Assembly: GCF_016757965.1 (NCBI RefSeq)
Contig: NZ_JAEKIW010000003.1
Coordinates: 62,001 to 126,000 of the forward strand
Direction: 5' to 3'
Length of the DNA stretch: 64,000 nt
Source of the DNA: Archaeoglobus neptunius
GTDB taxonomy: Archaea > Halobacteriota > Archaeoglobi > Archaeoglobales > Archaeoglobaceae
The translations under genes and the position numbers were made by a program. This document shows, in pieces, positions 29,468-32,251 of this stretch (its first letter is position 1; the number at the start of each line of letters is the position of its first letter). Under the pieces are notes generated by a model. The model saw only the letters and a program-made list of their open reading frames with translations, had not been told where the DNA came from and made no database searches.

Positions 29468-29475
29468 TATAAATA
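29468..29475 (+). promoter_or_regulatory. TATA box of the tusA-iscU operon
   Basis: TATAAATA is centred 26 nt before the tusA ATG at 29498, predicting a leaderless operon mRNA. Confidence 0.6.
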
Positions 29476-29497
29476 TCTTCTTAACAATGTTAATAAC

Positions 29498-29731
29498 ATG
29501 AAAAGTGTTGATTGTATAGGTCTTTACTGCCCTGAACCGGTATTCAGAACAAGAAAGGCCATAGAAGAGGCACGAGTTGGAGAAATAATAGAGGTTCTTG
29601 CAGACGATCCTGCAGCGGAGTCAGACATCCCAGTTCTGGTTAAAAAACTCGGTCAGGAACTGGTTGGATTTGAAAAAGATGATGACGGAATTCTTAAGTT
29701 TACCATCAGAGTGGTAAAGGAGGTGAGATAG
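29498..29731 (+). CDS. tusA: TusA-family sulfurtransferase
   Basis: A 77-residue sulfur-carrier protein with the hallmark CPxP in DCIGLYCPEPVFRTRKAIEE; Cys11 would hold a persulfide. LADDPAAESDIPVLVKKLGQ completes the fold. It is the first gene of an operon with DsrE-like, IscS, IscU and two small proteins, pointing to sulfur delivery for Fe-S clusters or thiolated molecules. Confidence 0.92.
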   Translation: MKSVDCIGLYCPEPVFRTRKAIEEARVGEIIEVLADDPAAESDIPVLVKKLGQELVGFEKDDDGILKFTIRVVKEVR

Positions 29732-29732
29732 A

Positions 29733-30092
29733 ATGGCAAAGATCGTTTACGTTCAGACCAGCGGTACAGACACTCCTGAAAGGTTGTATGTGCCGTTCAT
29801 ACTGGCAATGACGGCAAAGGCGATGGGAGACGAGGCCATTATATACTTTGTCGTTAAGGGTGTAACTGTTGTAAAGAGAGGTAATGCTGAAAAGATAAAA
29901 ATCGGTCAGTTTCCCACACTCAAAGAGGTGATGGATCAGGCAGTGCAGAGTGGGGTGGAGATGATGGTATGTGACCGGAGTTCTGAGCTTCTTGGAATTG
30001 ATAGCGGGGAAATCGTCGAGGGTGTTAAGGTAGTCGGTGCTGCAACGCTAAACCAGCTTGTTCTGGAGGCCGACGCAGCCCTGTATTTCTGA
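29733..30092 (+). CDS. DsrE-family sulfur-relay protein
   Basis: A 119-residue DsrE/DsrF-like protein: [29 protein letters not shown]-like helix region and [12 protein letters not shown], with a single cysteine in [15 protein letters not shown] that could take part in persulfide transfer. It starts 1 nt after tusA. TusA and DsrE proteins often exchange sulfur; here they may feed the IscU scaffold. Confidence 0.85.
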
Positions 30093-30102
30093 GGTGATGG
30101 GA

Positions 30103-31245
30103 ATGGCATATTTTGACTACGCTTCATCATCCCCTGTGGACAGGAGAGTTGTTGAGGCGATGCTGCCGTATATGACCGACCATTTTGGAAATCCATCGTC
30201 TGTCCATTCTTTCGGTTTCAAAGCTAGGGAGGCAATTGAGGAGGCAAGAGAAAAGGTTCTGCAGCTTATAGGCGGAAACGGTGATCTGGTATTTACATCT
30301 GGTGCTACCGAGGCCAACAATCTTGCATTAATAGGCTACGCAATGAGAAATTCAAAGAAGGGGAGACACATTCTTATCTCCTCTGTAGAACACATGTCCG
30401 TTATCAATCCGGCAAAATACCTGCAGAAGCAGGGATTTGAGGTGGAGTTCATACCCGTTAACGGCTTTGGGGAGGTGAAACTGGATTTTATCGAGGAAAA
30501 GCTCAGAGAAGATACAATCCTCGTATCGGTACAGCATGCCAATAGCGAAATCGGAACGATTCAGCCATTGGATGCCGTATCTGAAATTCTCGAAAAGAGT
30601 GACGCCGTGCTTCATGTTGACGCAACTGCGTCTGTCGGAAAAATTGATGTATCAAAACTCAACGCAGAGCTTATTACAATCTCATCCAACGATATCTACG
30701 GTCCAAAAGGAGTGGGGGCGCTTTTCATTGCAGAAAATGTCAGGATTCAGCCCCTGATTCTCGGTGGAGGGCAGGAAAAGGGTCTGAGGAGCGGGACTGA
30801 GAATGTTCCTGCAATAGTTGGTTTTGGAAAGGCTGCAGAGATAACGTCAAAAGAATGGAAAGACGACTCGGAGAGAATTAAAAAGCTCAGAGACAGGATA
30901 ATTGAAAATGCCTTGAAAATTGAGGATAGCTATCTCAATGGTCATCCGGAGAGAAGATTGCCGAACAATGTGAATATCAGATTCAGCTACATCGAGGGTG
31001 AGTCAATAGTCTTAAGTCTGGATATGAACGGAATACAGGCCTCAACAGGCTCTGCATGCAGCTCCAAAACACTGCAGCCAAGCCACGTTTTGATGGCATG
31101 CGGTCTGAAACACGAAGAAGCCCACGGATCGTTGCTTCTAACCCTCGGAAAATACAACACGGATGAGGATGTGGATAAACTGCTCGAAGTGCTGCCGGGT
31201 ATTATTGAGAGGTTGAGGAGCATGTCTCCTCTCTACAGGAGGTGA
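30103..31245 (+). CDS. iscS: IscS/NifS-like protein lacking the PLP lysine
   Basis: A 380-residue aminotransferase class V protein aligned along its length with cysteine desulfurases, including the loop cysteine in [11 protein letters not shown] (Cys319). The PLP site is degenerate: where IscS has SAHKIYGPKG this protein has [10 protein letters not shown], so His and Lys become Asn196 and Asp197, and the Gln of the DAxQ motif is Ala176. The PLP aldimine cannot form normally. A lysine-less IscS has been reported from A. fulgidus as lacking desulfurase activity. Start: the ATG at 30103 follows GAGGTGA; earlier frame codons overlap the DsrE gene. Confidence 0.9.
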
Positions 31246-31251
31246 TGTGGA

Positions 31252-31713
31252 ATGTACAGCGACAAGGTTTTCGAACACTTCCAGAACCCGAGAAATGTTG
31301 GTAAGATAGAGGATGCTGATGGTGTTGGTACCGTGGGGAATCCGGTGTGTGGAGACCTGATGACCATCTATATCAAGGTTAAAGATGGCAGGATAGAGGA
31401 TATAAAATTCCAGACTTTTGGCTGTGCTGCAGCCATAGCCACGAGCAGCATGGCAACAGAAATGGCAAAGGGTAAAACTATCGAAGAGGCTTTGCAGATA
31501 ACCAGAGACGCTGTAGCTGAGGCACTTGGAGGTCTGCCAAAGCAGAAGATGCACTGCTCCAACCTTGCAGCAGATGCGCTCAGGCGTGCTATAGTTGATT
31601 ACTTCAGAAAAAATGGAAACTTTGATAAAATAAAAGAACTTGGTCTCGAAAGGGAACTTGAAAAAATGGAAAAGGGAGAGATGGATGACCATGGAGAGTA
31701 CTGTGAGGCCTGA
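31252..31713 (+). CDS. iscU: IscU Fe-S cluster scaffold
   Basis: A 153-residue scaffold. The three cluster cysteines are in VGNPVCGDLMTIYIK, FQTFGCAAAIATSS and KQKMHCSNLAADAL, with the cluster-releasing Asp of CGD intact. The C terminus is extended and charged (EKMEKGEMDDHGEYCEA). It lies 6 nt downstream of iscS; in A. fulgidus the two form a complex in which an IscS cysteine can serve as a cluster ligand. Confidence 0.93.
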   Translation: MYSDKVFEHFQNPRNVGKIEDADGVGTVGNPVCGDLMTIYIKVKDGRIEDIKFQTFGCAAAIATSSMATEMAKGKTIEEALQITRDAVAEALGGLPKQKMHCSNLAADALRRAIVDYFRKNGNFDKIKELGLERELEKMEKGEMDDHGEYCEA

Positions 31714-31725
31714 GAGAGGGTGCAG

Positions 31726-32061
31726 ATGAAGCCACACTGTGTGGTAATGGTGAAATACATTCTTCCCGCCTTGAGAGCGAAAGTGGCGGGAGAGCTGATA
31801 GAAAGAGGATACAGAGTAAAGGATGTTGCCGAACTTCTTGGACTGACTCAGGCGGCAGTATCACAGTATCTTAAGAGCAAAAGGGGGCAGAAGGGGATGG
31901 AAATAATCGAAAAATCTGACAGAGCTCTGAACGTTGTAAGCGAGCTTGTTGATGACCTTATTGCGGGCAAAACGACCATTGAGGACGAGGTTGAATATCT
32001 CTGCAGGGTGTGCGAAATTCTACGAAAAGAAAATATTATAGAGGAAGAACATGCCGTTTGA
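31726..32061 (+). CDS. HTH transcriptional regulator (COG2522-like) with conserved cysteines
   Basis: A 111-residue protein with an XRE-like helix-turn-helix at residues about 27-53 (RVKDVAELLGLTQAAVSQYL). Cysteines lie near the N terminus (KPHC) and in the C-terminal helix (YLCRVCEIL). Three cysteines in such a small regulator next to iscSU suggest an Fe-S or redox sensor; this is inference. The ATG at 31726 is favoured over the GTG at 31720 because of the upstream GAGAGGGTG. Confidence 0.7.
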   Translation: MKPHCVVMVKYILPALRAKVAGELIERGYRVKDVAELLGLTQAAVSQYLKSKRGQKGMEIIEKSDRALNVVSELVDDLIAGKTTIEDEVEYLCRVCEILRKENIIEEEHAV

Positions 32062-32251
32062 GCTTGAAAGAAGTGCTGCACGACTCAGATGTGATGTTTG
32101 CGGTAAGATTGCGAAGGATCCAATCGTTGTTAAGACGTGCTGCGTTGACAAACCGGTGACCTTTTGCGGCAGAAAATGCTACCAGAAATGGAAGGCCGGA
32201 TGGATGAGGAGACAGGAGCAGATTGTTGACAAAAGAAAAAGGATTCTTTAG
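32051..32251 (+). CDS. Small TRASH-like metal-binding protein
   Basis: A 66-residue protein with LRCDVCGKIAKDP and TFCGRKCYQKWKAG, the C-x2-C ... C-x3-C layout of TRASH/zinc-finger domains, plus a CC pair between (VKTCCVDKP). It overlaps the regulator gene by 11 nt and ends the iscSU operon. Metal trafficking or sensing is plausible; function unknown. Confidence 0.6.
   Translation: MPFELERSAARLRCDVCGKIAKDPIVVKTCCVDKPVTFCGRKCYQKWKAGWMRRQEQIVDKRKRIL

Follow-up and report, generated by a model that had tools for sequence, protein, structure and literature searches.

The closest described counterpart of the protein considered here is the IscS of Archaeoglobus fulgidus. As summarised in PMC7585200 with reference to Pagnier 2014, this protein has no desulfurase activity and gives a cysteine ligand to the IscU cluster, and a drawing of the IscS-IscU complex shows both PLP and a [2Fe-2S] cluster in place (PMC9769115). 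In E. coli, TusA sits on IscS with the sulfur-carrying cysteines of the two proteins about 4 Å apart, and IscU occupies a neighbouring site (PMC2854127, PMC11302665). The route by which sulfur enters the Fe-S clusters of anaerobic archaea lacking a desulfurase has been described as unknown (PMC12442378, PMC12192291). An inactive IscS lending a cluster ligand to IscU, the core of a first-pass annotation of a gene in Archaeoglobus neptunius, is thus already published for A. fulgidus, and the precedent is as that annotation described it, to the extent given in PMC7585200 and in the PDB entries 4eb5, 4eb7 and 4hvk. What is new here is that IscS without the lysine forms a broad class and is not an oddity of a single species; the class is marked by the joint loss of four residues. 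In the accessible literature on IscS of the A. fulgidus type, no description was found of the operon neighbourhood, of the arginine loss or of the class-wide distribution.

The window, a stretch of 64,000 nucleotides of A. neptunius (contig NZ_JAEKIW010000003.1, positions 62,001 to 126,000), carries the gene at 30103..31245 on the plus strand, as defined by its open reading frame, homology and alignment to E. coli IscS. It starts with ATG and specifies 380 aa. Homology to IscS/NifS proteins (class V aminotransferase fold) extends over the whole fold (PF00266, E 5.2e-76); the score with TIGR03402, 461 bits, stays under the equivalog cut-off of 530.75, and the subfamily model NF002806 gave 305.4 versus 304. 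Residue numbers were checked on E. coli K-12 IscS, with K206 and C328 as reference points. In the alignment, the lysine and the adjacent histidine of the PLP Schiff-base site (Lys206, His205) are replaced by Asp197 and Asn196, which are part of an SSND sequence (codons 194-197, 30682..30693, plus strand) seen in the translation and as a DNA pattern match (G000:C3:92688-92710). Ala176, the last residue of VDATA (codons 172-176, 30616..30630, plus strand), takes the place of Gln183, the residue contacting the PLP ring at O3'. The absence of lysine, histidine and glutamine had been recognized in the first-pass annotation, but its list of three lost PLP contacts was incomplete: Leu345 (codon at 31135..31137, plus strand) is found at the position of Arg354, which binds the cysteine carboxylate of the substrate, and Ser148 at that of Asn155. 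Cys319 of the mobile loop (codon at 31057..31059, plus strand) aligns with Cys328 and is kept, as had been stated; it is invariant in all 123 IscS sequences compared. Since His97, Asp173, Thr69 and Thr232 (E. coli positions 104, 180, 76 and 243) are also kept, the loss of three PLP contacts does not mean that the PLP pocket is gone.

With lysine changed to aspartate, histidine to asparagine, the cysteine retained and iscU adjoining, the protein corresponds to the A. fulgidus type. Its nearest solved relatives are structures of A. fulgidus IscS2 (PDB 4EB5/4EB7/4HVK; lysine variant 4R5F), to which it is about 80% identical. The same SSND is present in all copies of the family, and its Asn-Asp pair in every archaeal SSND-type sequence examined, so that a sequencing error or chance can be discounted. 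A. fulgidus IscS already exists, in effect, as the aspartate-to-lysine variant that had been proposed as an experiment (4r5f); as histidine, glutamine and the substrate arginine are missing too, this single change is not expected to restore activity.

To define which residues distinguish the class, 35 lysine-bearing, 66 Asp-type and 22 other lysine-less sequences were compared. Exactly four sites that are invariant in lysine-bearing proteins (at least 34 of 35) are lost in both lysine-less classes, namely Q183, H205, K206 and R354, and all four serve substrate or PLP chemistry. Arginine is present at position 354 in 35/35 lysine-bearing and in 0/88 lysine-less sequences, and Asn plus Asp occupy the His and Lys sites in each of the 66 archaeal SSND-type sequences. 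Cys328, Ser326, His104, Asp180 and about 40 other sites, among them fold residues, are mostly kept in the lysine-less classes. The archaeal class has a mean pairwise identity of 59%, and the IscU-contacting E309 and E347 are fixed in 66/66. The loss of four catalytic sites with retention of Cys328 and the fold indicates that the chemistry has been abolished and that selection has continued to maintain the carrier part. One sequence, L237, appears intermediate, with histidine and glutamine kept (SSHQ with DAVQ) and arginine changed to valine. The residues of E. coli IscS on which TusA docks, W45 and E49, vary in all IscS classes, including the lysine-bearing one, and are therefore uninformative about preservation of the docking site. 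Arginine is found at E. coli position 89 (Arg82 in the window protein) in 66/66 archaeal lysine-less copies and is variable elsewhere; the position lies in a partner-binding region of E. coli IscS and may be a class-specific docking residue.

These comparisons bear on the possibility that some desulfurase activity, weak or of an unusual kind, is left, or that the protein is a different PLP enzyme working with another base. The cofactor can still bind, according to the legend of PDB 4EB5 (PMC9769115), Asn196 and Asp197 are invariant in the archaeal clade, and Yamanaka 2013, a paper on A. fulgidus listed among the references of PMC7585200, was counted in favour of residual activity. The later report, Pagnier 2014 as cited in PMC7585200, gave no desulfurase activity, the substrate arginine is lost from 88/88 lysine-less copies, and none of the residues found instead of lysine in Actinomycetota, Gln, Leu or Met, can form an internal aldimine. 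We consider such an enzyme improbable.

The distribution of the type was followed with a DNA pattern for N-D-x-Y-G-P. Among 394 genomes from the phylum to which A. neptunius belongs, 47 matched, representing 27 genera and 12 families; these figures are a lower bound because copies with SSNDIHGPRG escape the pattern. In the phylum of a Thermoproteota record, 19 of 398 genomes were positive. Outside Archaeoglobaceae, 29 genomes of the window's phylum matched the pattern; a second IscS was present in 18 of them, and for 11 the lysine-less copy was the sole one found. A separate set from Actinomycetota has Gln, Leu or Met at the lysine position, and Gly in one broken ORF. When active-site columns were left out of the tree, the archaeal Asp clade (98/88) stood apart from that of Actinomycetota (100/99), giving two changes in all. 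Constraining the tree to a single origin was 20 log units worse and was not rejected (AU p = 0.124), so that the whole catalytic set has perhaps been lost twice. Several of the genomes are metagenome drafts, and the lysine-bearing sequences used for comparison are a sample rather than a complete survey. In-frame stops flagged in lysine-less matches turned out to be normal gene ends at the inspected loci except for one, an internal TAA in L084, from a genome that is 64% complete.

Within Archaeoglobaceae, IscS was found in 19 of 55 genomes, with SSND in all 20 copies; no normal IscS was detected in these 19 genomes at E below 1e-30. The gene is absent from the remaining 36, and since many genomes of the family lack both IscS and IscU, the pair is dispensable there. 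This would be compatible with a degenerating paralogue retained only through its location in an operon. Such decay is very hard to reconcile with a reading frame that is intact in every Archaeoglobaceae genome having the gene, with the presence of IscU in all 19 genomes harboring lysine-less IscS, and with the fixation of the cysteine, its loop, E309 and E347 in 66/66 sequences despite their divergence, and we give it almost no weight. One genome (G001) has two lysine-less IscS-IscU copies (L165, L166), the second adjoined by DsrE, with no TusA found.

A second, normal IscS providing the sulfur had been named beforehand as the finding that would speak against the proposal. In the window genome, which is 99.99% complete, protein and Pfam PF00266 searches detected no other IscS, NifS or SufS; as the searches covered these types, the absence of such a desulfurase does not equal the absence of sulfide from cysteine. 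The remaining class V matches exceeding the cut-off, SepCysS (TIGR02539, 585 bits), an aminotransferase and MfnA-type decarboxylases, were rejected as candidates, as were more distant PLP enzymes. One SufB is encoded in the window genome. SufB was not found by Pfam and protein searches with working positive controls in seven Archaeoglobaceae genomes with lysine-less IscS-IscU (G023, G027, G028, G029, G030, G031, G033); all seven are drafts, three closed sister genomes (G024-G026) have SufB, and the observation was therefore given no weight.

In the window, iscS is part of a tight run of genes on the plus strand, in the order tusA-dsrE-iscS-iscU-HTH-Cys-rich; successive genes lie 1, 10, 6 and 6 bases apart, and the last two overlap. 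The first gene (29498..29731) specifies a TusA sulfur carrier of 77 aa with the TusA fold and a DCxGxxCPxP motif, in which Cys11 corresponds to Cys19 of E. coli (PF01206, E 1.2e-22, 80 bits). It reached 50.9 of 78 with the E. coli TusA equivalog NF001423 and is, being under this cut-off, assigned to the TusA family with no orthology to the E. coli protein implied. There are four TusA genes in the window genome, and thus TusA has other roles too. A DsrE-family sulfurtransferase of 119 aa with one conserved cysteine follows (29733..30092; PF02635, E 3.6e-18). Downstream of iscS, the IscU scaffold (31252..31713, 153 aa) has the NifU_N fold, three cluster cysteines and the aspartate (TIGR03419, 206.5 bits versus a cut-off of 187.9). 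The penultimate gene (31720..32061), with weak HTH_31/HTH_3 matches, specifies a small regulator-like HTH protein of 113 aa and is kept 3' of IscU among Archaeoglobus relatives. It is overlapped by the gene for a Cys-rich protein of 66 aa (32051..32251), which is kept at the loci of near relatives. Just 5' of tusA (29468..29493, plus strand), a TATA-like sequence, TATAAATA, is followed by an operator-like palindrome, TTAACAATGTTAA (29481-29493), which has at most one change in 4/4 aligned Archaeoglobus loci having tusA at this place. Its sequence makes TTAACAATGTTAA a candidate operator, to which the HTH protein encoded in the run might bind. A related HTH protein is also encoded after iscU in some lysine-bearing operons (L120, L123, L125, L129), so that this protein may regulate Fe-S functions in archaea generally. 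Upstream of the operon, a tRNA-Val gene is located on the opposite strand.

The first-pass annotation had taken the neighbouring TusA and DsrE genes as a hint that they or sulfide, not cysteine, supply the sulfur, and their presence is indeed not incidental, tracking the loss of the lysine across three phyla. TusA and/or DsrE are encoded on the same strand at 72 of 75 lysine-less loci versus 0 of 36 lysine-bearing loci, when the same HMMs were applied to about 4 kb on each side where the contig allowed; many of the lysine-bearing loci are from the same genomes. The corresponding Fisher p of about 5e-26 ignores relatedness and is descriptive only. As an out-of-sample check, 18 further Thermoproteota loci were chosen solely by the motif, and 17 of these had TusA adjacent. 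The CPxP cysteine is present in 71 of 73 aligned TusA proteins from lysine-less clusters, the remaining two having an ambiguous X, the DsrE cysteine (alignment position 81) in 49/49, and the cluster cysteines and aspartate are invariant among about 92 aligned IscU proteins. Gene order differs: in archaea TusA(-DsrE) precedes IscS-IscU, and in most of the Actinomycetota set TusA and/or DsrE follow IscS-IscU. A DsrE2-type protein (PF13686) replaces DsrE in some Actinomycetota clusters, and one TusA of this group (L020:7711-8049) has an N-terminal Cys-rich extension (CKCPFC...CTPC). Because some close relatives keep TusA without DsrE, the latter is not essential. Both are absent at four lysine-less loci (L230, L233, L274, L151), of which L230 lies on a contig ending about 1 kb downstream. 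At L151, where TusA-DsrE was lost, a remnant of the DsrE C-terminus is fused in frame 5' of IscS.

IscU has a C-terminal extension in eight lysine-less clusters from several families (L132:2641-3984, L142:2651-3982, L145, L146, L147, L148, L149 and, partial, L143:5131-5958). In the two full-length fusions scanned with Pfam, L132 and L142, the extension is a pyridine-nucleotide-disulfide oxidoreductase; L143 has a shorter extension without a clear assignment. The fused oxidoreductase is a possible built-in reductant for persulfide sulfur, and it fits sulfur arriving as S0 (persulfide), since S0 needs reduction.

The explanation that best accommodates these data, which we judge about equally likely to be right or wrong, is that a desulfurase has become a non-catalytic relay or adaptor for sulfur, which is fed by TusA, with DsrE, and serves IscU. 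The IscS homodimer would have kept its fold, the C-terminus binding IscU and the mobile loop with Cys319, and would no longer take sulfur from cysteine. DsrE would probably charge TusA from sulfide-derived polysulfide, persulfide or thiosulfate; TusA would dock on IscS and hand its persulfide to Cys319, or to IscU within the same complex; and during assembly of the [2Fe-2S] cluster by IscU, Cys319 would donate persulfide and/or serve transiently as the fourth ligand of the cluster. The direction of flow, the identity of the sulfur source and the role of DsrE are what we infer here, as is each step from source over DsrE, TusA and Cys319 to IscU. TusA is co-inherited with exactly those copies that lack the chemistry, which makes it the best candidate for a replacement supply, and the short distance between the TusA and IscS cysteines in E. 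coli indicates that a geometry for reverse transfer exists. In addition, a separate clade, in which the lysine replacements and the gene order are different, has this gene set as well. Against the relay, genomic association is not flux, four lysine-less loci have neither TusA nor DsrE, the sequences are related and the tree has only two origins of lysine loss, so that the independent sample is small, and TusA and IscU compete for IscS in E. coli (PMC11302665). The wider proposal, a cysteine-independent ISC module TusA(-DsrE)-IscS(dead)-IscU across Halobacteriota, Thermoproteota and the Actinomycetota group, in which the usual direction of IscS/TusA transfer is reversed, is more tentative, falling a little short of an even chance. 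As a whole, the earlier interpretation is partly supported.

Free sulfide is a serious rival to TusA as supplier, even if we regard it as rather unlikely. A. fulgidus is a sulfate reducer producing sulfide. With sulfide as donor, the dead IscS would be a platform positioning IscU and lending Cys319 as fourth ligand, TusA and DsrE serving some other sulfur task. This agrees with the A. fulgidus structure, in which Cys321 of IscS ligates the [2Fe-2S] cluster of IscU (PMC7585200, PMC9769115), and with desulfurase-less methanogens, which take sulfide for their Fe-S clusters (PMC7585200, PMC12192291). It would leave unexplained why TusA/DsrE go with the loss of the lysine in three phyla and with none of the lysine-bearing copies compared, and also why an oxidoreductase is fused to IscU, as sulfide needs no reduction. 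Alternatively, sulfur could run the other way, IscS-IscU loading TusA for tRNA, molybdopterin or other acceptors after Cys319 has been charged from sulfide or polysulfide. IscS to TusA is the direction in E. coli (PMC2854127), and TusA is a known carrier for multiple pathways. The constant partner in the clusters is IscU, however, not a tRNA or Moco enzyme, and the catalysis to charge IscS is gone; we think this improbable as well.

A fixed partnership of a dead IscS with TusA offers a specific and testable supply route, and if the TusA-fed relay is true, Fe-S clusters would be supplied by a source other than cysteine. The four residues also give annotators a rule for recognizing 'IscS' genes to which the name cysteine desulfurase should be denied, and the class is a natural test separating IscS residues needed for catalysis from those for the carrier role.

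Among known systems, A. fulgidus IscS2-IscU (4EB5, 4EB7, 4HVK, 4R5F) is orthologous to the window system, with 678 bits over the full length and the same SSND, DATA and cysteine; it is from another species, and the window genome has one copy. Methanosarcina acetivorans IscS1 is likewise reported to lack the catalytic lysine and was proposed to function in the manner of its A. fulgidus counterpart, but it coexists with an active IscS2 and formed inclusion bodies on expression (PMC7585200). E. coli IscS shares the fold family, the docking of TusA and IscU and a mobile cysteine reaching both (PMC2854127, PMC11302665), whereas it is an active desulfurase, sulfur flows from cysteine over IscS to TusA, and tusA is located far from iscS in the genome. 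The archaeal MIS (MisS-MisU) is similar as a two-gene minimal system of the IscS-IscU type, and SMS (SmsBC) in assembling Fe-S clusters from sulfide without a desulfurase (PMC12442378, PMC12192291). MIS has been described with a cysteine desulfurase, in contrast to the window system, which presumably works without one and has TusA/DsrE in addition. The DsrE3A-TusA thiosulfate carriers of Metallosphaera cuprina (PMC4175335) are another case of an archaeal DsrE and TusA handing sulfur from cysteine to cysteine, but are tied to Hdr-like sulfur oxidation and not to IscS-IscU.
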